A stretch of DNA of 64,000 bases from Thiosulfatihalobacter marinus (lineage in GTDB: Bacteria; Pseudomonadota; Alphaproteobacteria; Rhodobacterales; Rhodobacteraceae). The position numbers and the translations under genes were made by a program. The notes beneath the pieces are model-generated. The model made no database searches and was not told the origin of the DNA. It saw nothing but the letters and a program-made list of their open reading frames with translations. Below are positions 26,891 to 34,034 of this stretch, one piece after another (position 1 is the stretch's first letter; each line of letters opens with the position of its first letter). The DNA is taken from NCBI RefSeq assembly GCF_016019955.1, contig NZ_JAECRZ010000004.1, positions 248,001 through 312,000 on the forward strand. The letters run 5' to 3'.

Positions 26891-27010
26891 GAGCGAGGTC
26901 TCTCCGGTTGCAACTTGACCACAGCCTTTACCGCCCCGCCCGGCGCGGTGCAAGCGGTTGGCCGGGCATTCCGGCCCGATCCGGCGCGCGGGTCCGCGAC
27001 GGGGGCCATG

Positions 27011-27070
27011 GGGGGGCGCTGCCCCCGTCGCCTTTGGCGACTCCCCCGGGATATTTGGGGCCAAAAGAAG
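27011..27070 (-). repeat. Intergenic repeat, copy 4 (minus orientation)
   Basis: On the minus strand it reads CTTCTTTTGGCCCCAAATAT, then CCCGGGGGAGTCGCC, the hairpin GTCGCCAAAGGCGAC and GGGGGCAGCGCCCCC. It follows the stop of the ceramidase-like gene by 9 bases and lies between it and gatC, so it may end the upstream transcript. Confidence 0.75.
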
Positions 27071-27079
27071 AGCGCGGGG

Positions 27080-27730
27080 TCAGTGCTGTCGGATCACGTG
27101 CCGCCTGTAGACCTCGATCATCCAGCCCAGCATGACTGCGTTCAGGATATGCCACAGGAAATGCGTGCCCGGCGGCCAGGCGGCGCAGAGCGGCGCATCG
27201 AGGCTGCGCAGGGTGAGGGACACGCTCAGAATCGCCGCGCCGAGGCCGAGGCCGCGGGCTGTTTCGGGCAGGCGGGCGCGCAGCAGCAGCGCATAGAGCG
27301 CGATCAGGAGCGGCACCGGCCAGTAGAAGGCCGATCCGCCGATCAGGGGGATTTGCGCAAACAGCGGGATGGTGAGGGCGGCAAAGGGGAAGAACAGCAG
27401 GGTCGCGCCCAGCGCGGGCCAGGGGCGCAGCCCCCAGAAGGCGCGGTTCGCGGCGGCGATGTAGAGCAGGACAAACAGGGCGATCGGCACGGTGTCGGCC
27501 AGACCGGCCCAGACCCGGGCATGGGTGTGGAACAGGTAGCTGCCGATCCCGATAGCCGCCAGCACCCCGACCAGACCCCGCGCCACCCCCAGGCCCGGCC
27601 CCTGCACCCGGCGCCACATCACCCAGGCCGCCACCAGAAACGCCAGATTTGTCAGGGCGTTGACCGGTTCGGCCCAGTATTGTGGCCCCAGCCGCTCGCA
27701 ATAGCTGTCTACGCTGCGCGTCCAATCCAT
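27080..27730 (-). CDS. Ceramidase-family (CREST) membrane protein
   Basis: The 216-residue protein has about seven membrane helices. It carries the metal-ligand pattern of the alkaline ceramidase/CREST family: EPVNALTNLAFL, GSYLFHTHARVWAGLADTVP with His and Asp, and the C-terminal GTHFLWHILNAVMLG with two more His. These point to a zinc hydrolase in the membrane, usually acting on amide bonds of ceramide-like lipids. Bacteria without sphingolipids also carry such genes, and the substrate here is unknown. Most of the protein agrees in length with the family. Confidence 0.82.
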   Translation of the reverse strand: MDWTRSVDSYCERLGPQYWAEPVNALTNLAFLVAAWVMWRRVQGPGLGVARGLVGVLAAIGIGSYLFHTHARVWAGLADTVPIALFVLLYIAAANRAFWGLRPWPALGATLLFFPFAALTIPLFAQIPLIGGSAFYWPVPLLIALYALLLRARLPETARGLGLGAAILSVSLTLRSLDAPLCAAWPPGTHFLWHILNAVMLGWMIEVYRRHVIRQH

Positions 27731-27801
27731 CTGCTGTCTTCCCTCACGGGTTTGCCGTGCTAGTCTGGTGCCAGCCCATTTCAGACACAGGGAGAGTCAT
27801 C

Positions 27802-28494
27802 ATGCAAATCATCTGGCTTGGCCATGGCAGCTTTCGCATCGAAACCGGCGACAAGGTGCTGTTGATCGATCCGTGGCTCACCGGCAACCCGGTCCTGCCC
27901 GAAGACCGGCACGAGGCGGCGGTGGCGGGTGGCACGCACCTGATCCTGACCCATGCGCATTTCGATCACGTGGCCGACATGCTGCCGCTGGCGCGCAAGC
28001 TGGGTGCGCCCATGGTGGGCCAGTACGATCTGATGTCCTATTGGAACGAACACGAACATCTGGACACCATTGGTTTCAACAAGGGTGGCACGGTGGATCT
28101 GGGCGGTGTGCAGCTTTCGATGGTGCCCGCCTCGCACAGTTCCACTTTCGCGGGCGATGACGGTCCCAGGGCGGCCGGATCCGAGGTGGGGTACATGCTG
28201 CGGGCCGAGGGCAAGACGGTCTATGTTTCCGGCGACACCGACATCATGGCCGACATGGATTGGATGGGGGCGTATTACAAACCCCAGATCGGCATCCTGT
28301 CGGCGGGGGGGCATTTCACCATGGACATGAAGGCCGCCGCCTATGCCGCGAGGCGCTATTTCAATTTCCAGACAGTGATTCCCTGCCATTACAGGACCTT
28401 CCCGATTCTGGAACAGGGCGCGGAAGATCTGCGCGCCGGATTGCCGGGGGTCGAGGTGATCGAACCCGAGGTGATGCTGGCGATCGAGGTCTGA
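27802..28494 (+). CDS. UPF0173 metal-dependent hydrolase (metallo-beta-lactamase fold)
   Basis: The 230-residue protein begins at the ATG at 27802 (QIIWLGHGSFRIETGDKVLL). It has the metal site THAHFDHVAD, later SHSSTF, VSGDTDIMADM and a final CHYRTFP His, all typical of UPF0173/YtkL-like beta-lactamase-fold hydrolases. These are cytosolic enzymes with poorly defined substrates, perhaps phosphodiesters. It ends 6 bases before the first gene of the tandem cyclase array on the same strand and probably shares its transcript. If the cyclases make a cyclic nucleotide, a phosphodiesterase-like neighbour would be of interest, but this link is inference. Confidence 0.85.
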   Translation: MQIIWLGHGSFRIETGDKVLLIDPWLTGNPVLPEDRHEAAVAGGTHLILTHAHFDHVADMLPLARKLGAPMVGQYDLMSYWNEHEHLDTIGFNKGGTVDLGGVQLSMVPASHSSTFAGDDGPRAAGSEVGYMLRAEGKTVYVSGDTDIMADMDWMGAYYKPQIGILSAGGHFTMDMKAAAYAARRYFNFQTVIPCHYRTFPILEQGAEDLRAGLPGVEVIEPEVMLAIEV

Positions 28495-28500
28495 CCGGCG

Positions 28501-29484
28501 ATGGCCACGCTTGCCGACACAGAGTTCGACGCCTCCCCGGAGCTGGGCGCCATCGTGCGCCGGTACCTTGCGGCCTATGGCGGCAATGACGTTGAGACGC
28601 TCTTGAACCTGTTCAGCGACAGCCCGGCGGTGTTCTATCAGGGCACTGCCGAAAACGAGCTGTGGGACGGGGCGACATTGCGCGCGATCATGCCCGCCTA
28701 TGTGCAGACAAAGCCCCAATTCGCGCTCGACCGGCTGGAGGTCAACGCCTTCGAGCGGGGCGACACCGGCTATGCGGTTTTCCGGGTCGAGATCACCTTT
28801 ACCACCGGCAAGACGGCGGTGGTGCGCGGCACGCATCTTTTTCGCCTGGAGCGCGGGCAATGGCGGCTGGTGCACGCACATCATTCAAGCCCCCGCCCCA
28901 ATACCGAGAACATGGGCTATGAGGCCAGGGGCGTCGAAGAGCTTTTGCAGGCCGCGACAGATACGCCGCTGGATATCGGCCAGACCGGCATGGCCTCGGT
29001 CATGTTCACCGATATCGTCGACAGTTCGGCCATTGCCGAAACCGTTGGCGACACGGTCTGGAGCGGCGCGGTCAAACGCCATCTGGAAACCCTGTCAGAC
29101 CTGATTTCGGCAGGGGGTGGCCGGCTGATCAAGACGTTGGGCGACGGCACCATGTCAACCTATCCCAGTGCCCGCCAGGCGCTTCAGACGGCGCGCGACA
29201 TCCAGACCGCCATGGCGGCAAGCCAGCAGGAACCGCGCCTGCCCCTGCGGGTTGGCATTCACACCGGCGAAGTGGTCGATGCAGGCGACGATTTCTTCGG
29301 CACGGTCGTCAACAAGGCGGCGCGCGTCGCGGCGCTGGCGGGGCCTGCGGAAATCTGCCTGTCGGATGCCACCCGGATCATGGTCGGCACCGCGCCCGAG
29401 TTTGCCTTTGGCGAAGCCGTGGCCGTGAAACTCAAGGGGCTGGAGGGCGAACACATGATCTATCGGCTTGCGTGGCAGGCATGA
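28501..29484 (+). CDS. SnoaL-like/class III nucleotide cyclase, array copy 1
   Basis: The 327-residue protein joins an NTF2/SnoaL-like domain (about 15-135, ending RGQWRLVHAHHSS) to a class III adenylate/guanylate cyclase domain (about 162-325). Catalytic positions look complete: Asp171 in MFTDIVDSS and Asp215 in LGDGTM for the two metals, Lys211 and Asp264 (DDFFG) for base recognition, Asn271 and Arg275 in VVNKAAR for the transition state. The Lys/Asp pair favours ATP, so cAMP synthesis is expected. No signal peptide or membrane segment: soluble. The SnoaL-like part may sense a small molecule. The stop overlaps the next start as ATGA. Confidence 0.88.
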   Translation: MATLADTEFDASPELGAIVRRYLAAYGGNDVETLLNLFSDSPAVFYQGTAENELWDGATLRAIMPAYVQTKPQFALDRLEVNAFERGDTGYAVFRVEITFTTGKTAVVRGTHLFRLERGQWRLVHAHHSSPRPNTENMGYEARGVEELLQAATDTPLDIGQTGMASVMFTDIVDSSAIAETVGDTVWSGAVKRHLETLSDLISAGGGRLIKTLGDGTMSTYPSARQALQTARDIQTAMAASQQEPRLPLRVGIHTGEVVDAGDDFFGTVVNKAARVAALAGPAEICLSDATRIMVGTAPEFAFGEAVAVKLKGLEGEHMIYRLAWQA

Positions 29485-30455
29485 GCGGTGTCAGGCCATC
29501 CCCTGAATTGCTGGCCGTGGCGCGGCGCTGGATCGCCGCCATCCCCAACCGCAGGCCCGACGAACTGCGCAACCTGCTGACCGACCACGATCATCTGCTG
29601 TTCGTGGGCACCGGCGATGACGAATTGTGGCGCGGCGGCGCGGTGCGCGACGGGGTCGCGGAATTCTTCGGCGTGATCCCGGATCTCGTCAGGCACGAGG
29701 AAACCTTTGCCGAGGCCCATGAAAATGGCGGCACGGGCTGGGCCGTTCTGAACCACGAGCTGATCTTCGCCAATCAGCCCGACCGCCTTTTCAATGTGCG
29801 CACAACGCTGGTCTTCGTTCTGGAAGGCGGGACGTGGCGCATCGTGCACCGTCACGGGTCGGTGCCGATCCCGAATGCCACGATGACCGGCACCGAACAG
29901 ACCGCGATTGCCGATCTGGTCGCCGCAGCGCGTCAGGGATTCGCCCTGGATCAGCGCGCTGGCTTCGCCTCGGTCATGTTCACCGATATCGTGAATTCCT
30001 CGCGCATCGCCTCGGTGATGGGCGACCGGCTCTGGTCGTCCGAGGTCGCCCGCCATTTCGCCGCCCTGCGCCGGATCATCGAGGACGCGGACGGGCAATT
30101 CGTCAAGTCCCTCGGCGACGGCACCATGTCCAGCTTTCCCGATCCGGTCCATGCCCTGCGTGCTGCGCAAGCGATCCTGACCGCTGTCGCCGGTTCCGAC
30201 GGGCCGTCCATCGCGCTGCGCATCGGTATTCATACCGGCCCCGTCGTCCAGACCGACGCCGATTTCTTCGGAAACGTCGTGAACAAGGCGGCCCGCATCA
30301 CTTCGGTCGCGGAACCGGGCGAAATCCGGGTGTCGGATGCAACCCGCGACCTTGTCGAGCCCGGTGCCGGCCTTGCCTTTTCGCTCCCCATTGCCACGGT
30401 CCTCAAGGGTTTCGACGGCGATCACACGACCTTTCGGCTGGAGTGGCGCGCATGA
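29481..30455 (+). CDS. SnoaL-like/class III nucleotide cyclase, array copy 2
   Basis: This is a 324-residue paralogue of copy 1 with the same two-domain plan. The SnoaL-like part spans about 8-128 (LLFVGTGDDELWRGG, GGTWRIVHRHGS) and the cyclase domain about 160-322. Catalytic residues are present: Asp169, Lys209, Asp213, Asp261 (DADFFG), Asn268 and Arg272. The ATG at 29481 overlaps the stop of copy 1; its own stop overlaps the start of copy 3. A 38-base stretch at its 5' end (29494-29531) is identical but for one base to 30459-30496 in copy 3, evidence for recent duplication or gene conversion. Confidence 0.88.
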   Translation: MSGVRPSPELLAVARRWIAAIPNRRPDELRNLLTDHDHLLFVGTGDDELWRGGAVRDGVAEFFGVIPDLVRHEETFAEAHENGGTGWAVLNHELIFANQPDRLFNVRTTLVFVLEGGTWRIVHRHGSVPIPNATMTGTEQTAIADLVAAARQGFALDQRAGFASVMFTDIVNSSRIASVMGDRLWSSEVARHFAALRRIIEDADGQFVKSLGDGTMSSFPDPVHALRAAQAILTAVAGSDGPSIALRIGIHTGPVVQTDADFFGNVVNKAARITSVAEPGEIRVSDATRDLVEPGAGLAFSLPIATVLKGFDGDHTTFRLEWRA

Positions 30456-31419
30456 TCCGGCCATCCCCCGAATTGCTGGCCGTGGCGCGGCGCTGGTTCC
30501 GGGCGGTGATCGAACGGCAGGACGGCCAGCTAAAGCATTTTATGTCCAGGGGCGACGTGCTGCGCTTTGTCGGCTCTGCCCAGGGCGAAACATGGTCGGG
30601 CCCCGCCGTGCGCAAGGCCATTGACGCCCATTTCGCCGAGATCCCGAACGTTCTGAAATACGAAGAGATATTTGCCGAGGCCCATGAAAAGACGGAATCG
30701 GCTGGACGTTCTTTGTCAACAGGTTCTGGTTCGAAACCCGCGCCGACCCGATCGTGTTTCACTCTACGCTGGTGTTTGTTCTGGAAGACAACGCCTGGAA
30801 AATCGTCCTGCGTCATGCCTCGGTGCCTGCACCCAACAAGGACACCACCGGGCACGAACACGCGGCGATCCAGGCGCTGGTCGATGCGGCGCTACAGGGC
30901 TTCTCGCTGGGCCAGCGCGAGGGGCTGGCCTCGGTCATGTTCACCGATGTTGTCGACAGTACCACATTGGCCAATGCGCTGGGGGATCGCGCCTGGTCGT
31001 CGCGCATGGGCGCGCATTTCGCCGAAATCCGCCGGATCATCGAAACCCATGGCGGGCAGTTCGTGAAATCGCTGGGCGACGGCACCATGTCCAGCTTTTC
31101 CTCCGCCCGCGCCGCGCTTTCGGCGGCGGTGGAGATCCAGCGCGCCATGGCCGCGCGGGCCGAAGAACCGGTGCTGCACCTGCGCATCGGCCTGCACACC
31201 GGCGACGTGGTGCAATCGGATGACGAATTCTTCGGCAACGTCGTGAACAAGGCCGCCCGCATCACCGCCATGGCCGAGCCGGGCACGATCCGGGTCTCCG
31301 ACACCACCCGCGCCATGGTCGGCGGCTGCGGCGATCTTGCCTTCACCGCCCCGCGGGTCGTCAGGCTCAAGGGGTTCGACGGCGACCATGCCACACATGC
31401 GCTGGACTGGGCGCCATGA
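30452..31419 (+). pseudogene. SnoaL-like/class III nucleotide cyclase, array copy 3, frameshifted
   Basis: Translation from the ATG at 30452 follows the family to FAEAHEK and then leaves frame near 30687-30692, in the run CATGAAAAGACGG. The correct continuation (DGIGWTFFVNRF and onward, through a complete cyclase domain ending LKGFDGDHATHALDWAP) is in the next frame and closes with a stop at 31417-31419. One missing base explains the break. The cyclase half still has FTDVVDST, VKSLGDGTM and VVNKAAR, but the base-recognition position reads DEFFG, Glu instead of Asp. The C-terminal part could be re-initiated from a GTG at 30754. A sequencing error in the reference cannot be excluded. Confidence 0.85.
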
Positions 31420-32378
31420 TCCGTCCCTCGCCCGAGATCGCCGCCATCGTGCGCCGCTTTACCAGCGCCATCCGCACCCATGCCGTGGCCGACCTGCCGC
31501 ATTACTTCAGCCAGGACGAGGCGGTGGTCTATATCGGCACCGCCGACGGCGAAATCTGGCAGGGCCCGATCATACGCGACGGCATCTCCGCCCATATGGC
31601 CGAGATTCCCGACTTCACCGAAACCGACGTGGACATCGCCGCCTTTGAAAACGGCGAAACCGGCTGGGCGCATTACAGCAGCAGGTTTCACTTTGCCCGG
31701 ACCGGCGCCACCGGCTCCCACCGCGCCACCTTTGTTTTCGTCCTCCAGCAGGGCAGCTGGAAAATGATCCAGCATCACATCTCCGAAGCGACCCGGAACA
31801 TGCCAAAGCTGGGCATCGAACACACCGCCTTTCAGGCGCTTCTCACAGCCGCTCAGGCGGCCAACCACGATTTTGGCACCGAGGGTCTTGCCTCGATCAT
31901 GTTCACCGACATCGCCGGGTCCACCCGACTGGCCGCCATGGTCGGCGACAGGATGTGGATGCAGGTGCTTGACCGGCACATGGGGATCATCCGCGCCTGC
32001 CTGTCCGATCACGGCGGCGAACTTGTCAAATCGCTGGGCGACGGCACGATGAGCGCCTTCCCCTCGGCCCGCAACGCGCTGACGGCGGCGCTTGACCTTC
32101 AGGCGCGGGTCGCCGCCGCGCCCGAAGAGCCCGCCCTGGCGCTGCGCATCGGCATCCATACCGGCGAGGTGATCCGCGCCAGCGACGATTTCTTCGGCAC
32201 CGTCGTCAACAAGGCCGCCCGCGTGGCCGATTCCGCCGCGCCCGGTGAAATCCGCGTCACCGACGCCGCGCGCCTGATCGCCGGGGAGGACGCCAGCCTG
32301 CACTTCACCGATCCCGACAACCGCCCGCTCCGGGGCCTGCCGGGAACCCATCTCACCTATCGCCTGACACCCCCCTGA
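31416..32378 (+). CDS. SnoaL-like/class III nucleotide cyclase, array copy 4
   Basis: This 320-residue protein is the most divergent in the array. The SnoaL-like part (about 5-123) reads VVYIGTADGEIWQGP and FVFVLQQGSWKMIQHHIS; the cyclase part (about 155-318) has Asp165 in MFTDIAGST, Lys205 and Asp209 in KSLGDGTM, Asp258 in DDFFG and Asn265/Arg269 in VVNKAAR. All catalytic positions are kept. Its ATG overlaps the stop of copy 3 (ATGA), so even the broken copy preserves the junction. The M24 peptidase-like gene starts 12 bases after its stop. Confidence 0.88.
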   Translation: MIRPSPEIAAIVRRFTSAIRTHAVADLPHYFSQDEAVVYIGTADGEIWQGPIIRDGISAHMAEIPDFTETDVDIAAFENGETGWAHYSSRFHFARTGATGSHRATFVFVLQQGSWKMIQHHISEATRNMPKLGIEHTAFQALLTAAQAANHDFGTEGLASIMFTDIAGSTRLAAMVGDRMWMQVLDRHMGIIRACLSDHGGELVKSLGDGTMSAFPSARNALTAALDLQARVAAAPEEPALALRIGIHTGEVIRASDDFFGTVVNKAARVADSAAPGEIRVTDAARLIAGEDASLHFTDPDNRPLRGLPGTHLTYRLTPP

Positions 32379-32389
32379 AAGGAGCGCCC

Positions 32390-33565
32390 ATGCCCGCCAG
32401 CGATTTCACCCCTGCGGAATACGCCACCCGCCTCGCCAGGACCCGCGCCGCCATGGCCGCGCAAGGCATCGATACGCTGATCGTCGCGGATCCGTCCAAC
32501 ATGGCCTGGCTCACCGGCTATGACGGGTGGAGCTTCTATGTTCCCCAGGCCGTCATCCTGCACCTGTCGGGCGAACCGCTCTGGTGGGGCCGCACCCAGG
32601 ACCGCCCCGGTGCCGCGCAAACCACCCGGCTGCCCGCCGACAACCTGCTCGACTGGCCCGAAGAGCATGTCCAGCACCCCGATCACCACCCCTACGAGTC
32701 ACTGGCCGATCATCTGCGGGCCCGTGGCTGGACCCGCGCCATCGGCGTCGAGATGGACAATTATTACTATTCCGCCAGATCGCATCAGGTGTTGCTGGAT
32801 GCCTTTGGCGCCGACCGGATCACCGACGCCACCGGCCTCGTGAACTGGCAGCGCGCGGTCAAAAGCCCGGCCGAACTCGACATGATGCGCAAGGCCGGGC
32901 AACTCACCGCCCATATGCACACCACCCTGCGCGCCGGGTTCCATCCCGGGCGCCCCAAACACGAACTGGTGGCCGAGGTACAGGCCGCAGGCGTCTCGGG
33001 CCTGCCCGGCATCGCCGGCGACTATGCGGCCATAGCCCCAATTGCCCCTTCGGGCACCGAGGCATCGGCCTCGCATATCACCTGGAACGATCGTCACCTT
33101 GTCGCGGGCGAAGCCACCTATTTCGAAATCTCGGGCTGTTATCACCGCTATCACTGCCCGGTCAGCCGCACGCTCTACCTTGGGGACCCCCCCGCCGATA
33201 TCCGCCGCGCCGAAGAGGCGATTCTCACCGCCATCACCGACACATTCGCCGCCGCGCGCCCCGGCGCCACCTGCGAAGAGGTGGCCGCCCGAGTCTATGA
33301 AAGCTTTGCCCGCGCGGGCTATGTCAAAGGCAACCGCACCGGCTATCCGGTCGGGCTCAGCTACCCGCCCGACTGGGGCGAACGCACCATGAGCCTGCGC
33401 CCGGGCGACACCACGCCGATCCGGGAAAACATGACCTTCCACCTGATGCCGGGGCTGTGGACCCCGGACTGGGGCGTGGCGATCACCGAAACTTTCGTGG
33501 TCACGCCCGAGGGCGGCCAGCCGCTGGCCGATGTCCCGCGCGAAATTTTCGTGCTGCCCGCCTGA
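32390..33565 (+). CDS. M24-family hydrolase, ectoine hydrolase/creatinase-like
   Basis: The 391-residue protein has the pita-bread fold of M24 (Xaa-Pro peptidase/creatinase) enzymes with an N-terminal creatinase domain (MAWLTGYDGWSFYVPQ). The usual metal ligands of the peptidases are changed: the first Asp region reads FEISGCYHRYHCPVSRT and the His region GYPVGLSYPPDWGERTM. The latter is characteristic of DoeA/EutD-type ectoine hydrolases and of metal-free creatinases. I therefore expect C-N bond hydrolysis of a small molecule, not a dipeptidase. No other ectoine-catabolism gene is nearby. It is the last gene of the co-directional run that includes the cyclase array. Confidence 0.8.
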   Translation: MPASDFTPAEYATRLARTRAAMAAQGIDTLIVADPSNMAWLTGYDGWSFYVPQAVILHLSGEPLWWGRTQDRPGAAQTTRLPADNLLDWPEEHVQHPDHHPYESLADHLRARGWTRAIGVEMDNYYYSARSHQVLLDAFGADRITDATGLVNWQRAVKSPAELDMMRKAGQLTAHMHTTLRAGFHPGRPKHELVAEVQAAGVSGLPGIAGDYAAIAPIAPSGTEASASHITWNDRHLVAGEATYFEISGCYHRYHCPVSRTLYLGDPPADIRRAEEAILTAITDTFAAARPGATCEEVAARVYESFARAGYVKGNRTGYPVGLSYPPDWGERTMSLRPGDTTPIRENMTFHLMPGLWTPDWGVAITETFVVTPEGGQPLADVPREIFVLPA

Positions 33566-33578
33566 TCCTGTTCTGCTC

Positions 33579-34034
33579 CTACTCTGCGCGGCGCGCCGCG
33601 AAGAACGCCCGGAGCAGCGCCTCTGACTCGCGCGCGCCAATCCCGTCATACAGCTCGGGCACGTGGTGGCTTTGGGGATGGGCAAACACCCGTGGCCCCT
33701 GCGCCAAGCCCCCCGATTTGGGATCGGCGGCACCATAATACAGCCGCGCGATTCGTGCCTGGCTGATGGCGCTGGCGCACATCGGGCACGGCTCCAGCGT
33801 GACATACAGATCATGGTCCGCAAGACGCTCGCTGCCCAGCGCCCGGCACGCCGCGCGCAGCGCCACGATCTCGGCATGGGCCGTGGGATCACACCATTCC
33901 CGCGTCCGGTTGCCCGCCGCCGCAACCACTTCGCCTTCGGGCGACACGATCACCGCGCCCACCGGCACCTCGCCGCGTCCCGCCGCCGCGCGCGCCTCTT
34001 CCAGCGCCAGGTCCATGTAGCTCTTGAACACCAT
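33579..34034 (-). CDS. tadA: tRNA adenosine(34) deaminase / nucleoside deaminase
   Basis: TadA converts wobble adenosine to inosine in tRNA-Arg. The 151-residue product starts at the ATG at 34034 (MVFKSYMDLALEEA) and carries the zinc deaminase signature: HAEIVALRAA (His and catalytic Glu) and PCPMCASAI (two Cys). The C-terminus (VPELYDGIGARESEALLRAFF) fits TadA. The longer upstream reading crosses the start region of the divergent rluB gene and is not needed. Generic nucleoside deaminases look similar, so a guanine deaminase-like role is a lesser alternative. Confidence 0.88.
   Translation of the reverse strand: MVFKSYMDLALEEARAAAGRGEVPVGAVIVSPEGEVVAAAGNRTREWCDPTAHAEIVALRAACRALGSERLADHDLYVTLEPCPMCASAISQARIARLYYGAADPKSGGLAQGPRVFAHPQSHHVPELYDGIGARESEALLRAFFAARRAE

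Follow-up and report, generated by a model that had tools for sequence, protein, structure and literature searches.

A recurrent array of NTF2-domain class III cyclase genes at one chromosomal site in roseobacters

Four consecutive genes on the forward strand of the Thiosulfatihalobacter marinus genome, at 28501-32378 of a 64-kb stretch (contig NZ_JAECRZ010000004.1, positions 248,001 to 312,000; hereafter the window), are built alike, with a SnoaL_3/NTF2 domain at the N-terminus of the product and a class III nucleotide cyclase domain at its C-terminus. Arrays of this kind are recurrent, unusual in organisation and ordinary in enzyme. The reading we favour, at roughly even odds, is that the array encodes soluble adenylate cyclases gated by ligands, varies in its make-up and is translationally coupled, the classes of paralogue being inputs to one cyclic AMP (cAMP) output. 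The product of each gene would be a class III cyclase, active as a homodimer and using ATP over GTP as its main substrate. The NTF2/SnoaL-type domain, joined via a short helix, would bind a small molecule and so switch the cyclase. It is chiefly in this domain that the classes of paralogue differ, and they would respond to different small molecules. All copies would feed a single cAMP pool, to be read by cyclic nucleotide (cNMP)-binding regulators encoded elsewhere in the genome. The set of members would change over time at one fixed place in the chromosome, by gain, loss, breakage and probably recombination.

Why should a bacterium have so many makers of one messenger? This is an old question about bacteria with many class III cyclases. 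Paralogues that lie side by side in culturable marine bacteria, and that differ mainly in one small and probably ligand-binding domain, make the idea of many inputs to one messenger testable gene by gene.

The copies and their junctions are as follows (classes A to F are paralogue classes, described below).

28501..29484, + strand: copy 1, NTF2/SnoaL_3 plus class III cyclase, 327 amino acids, intact, fast-diverged; nearest class A, weakly placed
29481..30455, + strand: copy 2, NTF2/SnoaL_3 plus class III cyclase, 324 amino acids, intact; class B
30452..31419, + strand: copy 3, NTF2/SnoaL_3 plus class III cyclase, frameshifted inside the NTF2 domain; class C
31416..32378, + strand: copy 4, NTF2/SnoaL_3 plus class III cyclase, 320 amino acids, intact; class D
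29481..29484, + strand: ATGA start-stop overlap, copies 1 and 2
30452..30455, + strand: ATGA start-stop overlap, copies 2 and 3
31416..31419, + strand: ATGA start-stop overlap, copies 3 and 4; a real frameshift in copy 3 would interrupt coupling here

An initial annotation had described four genes of this two-domain plan. Its coordinates hold, as do both domains in copies 1, 2 and 4, which match Pfam SnoaL_3 (PF13474) above cut-off (E = 2e-14, 5e-15 and 9e-19) and Guanylate_cyc (E = 3e-14, 7e-16 and 2e-16). Copy 3, however, is not one open frame. Structure models of copy 2 confirm both the cyclase fold and the NTF2 fold that had been proposed for the N-terminus. The NTF2 part was modelled alone because the structure matches of the whole model were all cyclases, and this predicted domain has fold matches at 8-20% identity. 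These include AtzH, PP_4556 (3f7s), SPO1084 (3fka) and CaMKII hub domains; unlike AtzH, 3f7s and 3fka, the NTF2 domains of the array are fused to a cyclase. For other families it has been proposed that an NTF2-like domain binds a ligand and thereby regulates the domain attached to it (PMC3924330). The proteins had also been called soluble, and no membrane segment was found in copies 1, 2 and 4, where the highest 19-residue hydropathy mean is 1.14-1.25.

For comparison, one genome per species was scanned; the best 80 of 84 matches fall in 75 loci, 51 of them with at least one full-length member. All six catalytic residues (two metal-binding Asp, the base-binding Lys and Asp, an Asn and an Arg, which we take to be the functions of these positions) are kept in 97 of 98 aligned proteins, although the scan patterns contain catalytic residues and the loci are therefore partly selected for them. 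Array rows number 55, all with the six residues, and at most 19 of these can have brought in their own locus. Both the catalytic fold and the residue set of class III cyclases are present, and copies 1, 2 and 4 are complete, as had been noted from the sequence. The Lys and Asp of these three copies form a base-specifying pair of the adenylate-cyclase type. PMC4215837 describes the base-specifying role of such a pair, for an enzyme with residual GTP activity too. We infer cAMP as the product and homodimers as the working form.

Hetero-dimer mixing, which the initial annotation had suggested, finds no support in these data: no copy lacks either half of the composite active site. Since all catalytic residues are retained, a division of labour within the active site is disfavoured, although facultative mixing may still occur. 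Mixing of another sort would occur if the NTF2 domain were a CaMKII-like oligomerisation hub, with co-translated paralogues assembling into mixed rings or dimers and the cAMP output depending on which copies take part. The likeness to CaMKII hubs is one of predicted fold, and we regard this arrangement as improbable.

The ATGA overlap occurs at all three junctions (29481, 30452 and 31416), as had been claimed. Promoter-like sites in 27000-33700 are at chance level (one observed, 0.9 expected, in a scan for the sigma-70 consensus only), which gives no sign of separate promoters; terminator-like sites number two, with 3.9 expected by chance. To this extent the array may be the single translationally coupled unit that had been proposed. 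However, the frameshift in copy 3, if real, breaks the chain.

This frameshift deserves a closer look. Copy 3 had been described as a gene of the two-domain plan, and neither the frameshift nor an unusual residue in its cyclase half had been reported. Reading from 30452, the match to the NTF2 domain is lost some 80 residues in and the frame ends at 31066; what remains of this domain can be read, together with the cyclase half, in another frame (30754-31419). At the base-binding Asp position there is a Glu, where all 97 other aligned rows have Asp. The array is therefore made up of three intact genes and one that is apparently broken, and if the break is real ribosomes would stop 350 bases before copy 4, so that coupling is interrupted. 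Only 17 changes are private to copy 3, nine of them nonsynonymous, and there is no further sign of relaxed selection. Because these changes are so few, the break is either recent or an assembly error. Programmed frameshifting is disfavoured since every other row of class C (seven in all: L038, L029, L045, L048, L046, L047 and L049) reads through in a single frame.

Broken members occur elsewhere. A second array has one at L045:5989-6417, the pieces of which match only profile positions 3-99 and 270-323, with the middle missing. Further single members are in two frames or are without the N-terminal domain (L069:6001-6951, L077:5995-6957, L078:5998-6519 and L082:6338-6909). Decay seems to be common in the family.

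In a tree of the 98 proteins, the copies group mostly by class and not by genome. The tree was made with a quick method and SH-aLRT (a Shimodaira-Hasegawa-like approximate likelihood ratio test) only, with several long branches flagged. Copy 2 lies in a 16-row group B with support of 98* (class B as drawn has 19 rows and support of 82), copy 3 in an eight-row group C (97*) and copy 4 in a ten-row group D (100*). The placement of copy 1 is less sure: on an end branch of 0.83, it joins class A and three others in a group of 15 rows with support of 83, and by its NTF2 domain it comes closest to class A (46% identity). The classes are old and common to several genera. Their order in arrays is also largely kept, where o denotes a member outside the six classes: ABCD in the host and in Shimia aestuarii (L038), ABD in L028, AFBD in L031 and L039, AooBD in L030 and L034, ABFoE in L041 and L042, and ABoE in L043. 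The other orders are oBE (L027), BoEC (L029), oCD (L045), FCDo (L048) and oo (L075).

What separates the classes is mainly the NTF2 domain. Members of one class share on average 68% identity in the NTF2 domain and 63% in the cyclase, members of different classes 37% and 52%. Class-diagnostic columns make up 39 of 134 NTF2 positions and 14 of 164 cyclase positions. Copy 3 was left out of the identity means, and rows outside the six classes were left out of the means and the column counts. With NTF2 columns alone (FastTree) the six classes are recovered in five changes, the fewest possible, and with cyclase columns in eight. The NTF2 domain has its best match outside its own class in none of 69 classed proteins, the cyclase domain in six of 69. 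The NTF2 domain carries class identity. The suggestion of sensors for different ligands gains from this indirectly, in that NTF2 splits the classes more than the cyclase does, the classes cross genera and NTF2-like domains are proposed as ligand binders elsewhere. Gene conversion that homogenises the copies of an array was not seen: relative to the same classes across genomes, the identity excess within an array is -0.2% for NTF2 and +1.0% for cyclase.

The two halves of copy 3 tell different stories. Its NTF2 half goes with L045 and L029 and its cyclase half with L038. Two of three quartets with copy 3 have the NTF2 split in 1.0 and the cyclase split in 0.96-0.97 of bootstraps, and the third has 0.75 and 1.0. 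The conflict is weak or undecided in four more quartets, from classes A, B and D. Of seven permutation tests of domain discordance, three reach p <=0.0008 (two with copy 3 and one with copy 2 and L033), and the other four have p of 0.08 to 0.70. A screen of within-class triples found 59 crossing of 5058, which may also reflect uneven rates; for this reason the quartets are preferred as evidence. By these sequence comparisons copy 3 looks like a mosaic gene.

The arrays are tied to one chromosomal site. The genes on either side of the array in the window are these.

27802..28494, + strand: metallo-beta-lactamase (MBL)-fold metal-dependent hydrolase of the PRK00685 type (NCBIfam NF001911, 218.5 bits, cut-off 144)
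32390..33565, + strand: M24 peptidase, ectoine-hydrolase (DoeA)-like (PF00557; TIGR02993 at 498.8 bits, under the cut-off of 613)

The hydrolase gene ends six bases upstream of copy 1 and the peptidase gene, an optional part of the site, begins 11 bases downstream of copy 4. A hydrolase gene lies upstream in 33 of the 51 loci with a full-length member, and 18 loci are at other places. In 28 of the 33 the first cyclase gene is within 158 bases, and in five the peptidase gene comes in between. Arrays number 14, with two to five full-length copies each (plus one broken copy in L045), and all 14 are at the hydrolase site; none of the 18 loci elsewhere holds one. Across the arrays, 36 of 41 junctions have a four-base overlap. 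The clustering is not chance, given this recurrence and the fact that four of the 14 Guanylate_cyc matches in the host genome (4.16 Mb, 66 contigs, 99.8% complete) are in the array and ten elsewhere.

The site can also be empty. The hydrolase is found in 24 of 25 genomes of the host genus and the cyclase family in six. Twenty hydrolase sites were examined, leaving out the host's own, two with known arrays (G002 and G023) and G022. A cyclase gene is present at two, and at 18 no match reaches a fifth of a query's length. The peptidase gene follows at seven of these 18 and tadA is the next known gene at 11. One genome that is cyclase-free at the site (G009) has a member elsewhere. A hydrolase gene without cyclases at 18 of 20 sites marks the cyclase genes as accessory cargo in a housekeeping neighbourhood. 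It also shows that the hydrolase is no dedicated partner of theirs, and the idea that it is the matching phosphodiesterase was rejected in that sense. At one cyclase-free site (L106) the DoeA-like peptidase gene is matched in two pieces, and it may be decaying too.

The array and its surroundings also differ in pace. Between the host and S. aestuarii, DNA identity is 84-90% for flanking genes, 73% for the ceramidase-like gene and 53-81% for array domains; the array is changing faster than the genes around it, by divergence or by recombination. Perhaps roseobacters have a dedicated docking site here, where co-translated sensor-cyclases are put together, swapped and pruned. Homologous recombination between arrays would then shuffle NTF2 sensor domains against cyclase domains and so edit, domain by domain, the set of chemicals that a strain turns into a cAMP signal. 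We offer this tentatively. Among the 19 single-copy sites, class E is found at eight, a member outside the six classes at six, and each of A, B, C, D and F at one, a mix as expected from differing losses out of larger arrays, or from exchange. Class B occurs alone at other places in six genomes (L032, L035, L036, L037, L040 and L044, the last the most distant), and it may be the mobile or the most broadly useful class.

The initial annotation called the two-domain plan rare, and members are indeed almost confined to roseobacters. They were found in six of 25 genomes of the host genus (family profiles, E 1e-30), 15 of 394 of the host family and 28 of 390 of the host order (both E 1e-60); these samples and that of the phylum overlap. 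In the phylum sample there were members in three of 398 genomes (E 1e-40), two full-length, both in the host family, and one cyclase-only. Arrays (at least two adjacent genes on the same strand) occur in three of the 25 genus genomes and six of the 394 family genomes, the host being counted in both. The wide searches scored at most five candidates per genome, so copy numbers there are lower bounds: one genome (G654) has at least four members on four contigs and another (G588) at least three on three contigs. A third (G607) has an array plus a divergent gene pair.

Several observations weigh against an array of sensors for different ligands. Sensor domains often diverge faster than catalytic ones, and NTF2 divergence alone is no proof of different ligands. 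The classes were drawn from a full-length tree that includes the NTF2 columns, which makes the comparison of the two domains partly circular, although the NTF2 columns on their own recover the classes with the fewest changes. The NTF2 domain might be an oligomerisation module only. Both ligand gating and cyclase activity of the array proteins are predictions. The array is not required for function, as the genomes with dispersed members indicate. Patchy presence and broken copies (copy 3, L045, L069, L077, L078 and L082) fit a dispensable system. Finally, 83 of the 101 private changes of copy 1 and 20 of the 27 of copy 4 are nonsynonymous, compared with 18 of 39 to 35 of 53 in relatives, and such high shares may mean weak constraint.

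What if the paralogues differ little in function? Tandem duplication through unequal crossing-over at an accessory site and near-random retention would then yield birth-and-death paralogues that set the dosage of one cyclase. The patchy presence, the broken copies, sites with zero to five copies, the same overlap register at most junctions and the nonsynonymous share in copies 1 and 4 would all follow. However, the classes are common to several genera and are held at 68% and 63% identity in the two domains, the copies of an array are not homogenised and catalytic residues are almost always retained. We consider this scenario unlikely, though together with the hub it is the chief rival to ligand-gated cyclases with a common output.

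A role in defence has also to be weighed. In Pycsar, a cyclic nucleotide made upon infection triggers an effector, which is encoded next to the cyclase and is a membrane or TIR protein. PycC shares a class III-like cyclase domain with the array, and the cyclase half has weak PADLOC PycC matches (best 35.3 bits in copy 2 and 36.2 in the cyclase half of copy 3); fast evolution and patchy presence would suit such a role. Nevertheless, the four neighbouring genes scanned have no PADLOC match, and the six cNMP-binding domains of the host genome are all on contigs other than that of the array. The site lies amid housekeeping genes, and between hydrolase and tadA the 18 cyclase-free sites show just the peptidase gene or no other query match. 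The array cyclases also differ from Pycsar in their NTF2 domain and in a Lys/Asp pair as in adenylate cyclases. Anti-phage signalling is therefore very improbable.

Among characterised enzymes, the mycobacterial adenylate cyclases Ma1120, Rv1900c/LipJ and Rv1264, presumably all class IIIc, resemble the array proteins in catalytic fold and in the sequence of the cyclase half, at about 27-34% identity. LipJ and Rv1264 also have a domain ahead of the cyclase, in LipJ a lipase where the array has NTF2/SnoaL; the array members differ further in being coupled at one site. Ruegeria pomeroyi carries an array (L034), and the solved cyclase of this organism (Ruegeria (Silicibacter) pomeroyi, 3mr7) is a different one, 27% identical over 165 residues. 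Its cyclases are listed by locus tag in PMC4809877. Whether such arrays are common and already characterised has a divided answer: they recur in roseobacters, and no description of SnoaL/NTF2-cyclases or of such arrays was found among the matches listed from open-access PMC literature, as far as their excerpts go. The architecture may well be visible in domain databases.

A few minor observations can be added. A ceramidase-family gene (PF05875; 27080-27730, - strand) is divergent from the hydrolase gene and is kept at many such sites. Full-length members are present in records labelled Gammaproteobacteria, Spirochaetaceae, Rhizobiaceae (two) and Alphaproteobacteria (L051, L056, L057, L063 and L079). 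They form a single clade (99*), which reflects either transfer or mis-binned contigs. The three PDB sequence matches of the family profile include a designed cortisol binder (8uqf); the NTF2 fold serves as a scaffold for designed binders, and a natural NTF2-gated cyclase, if this is what the array encodes, would be useful for biosensors.

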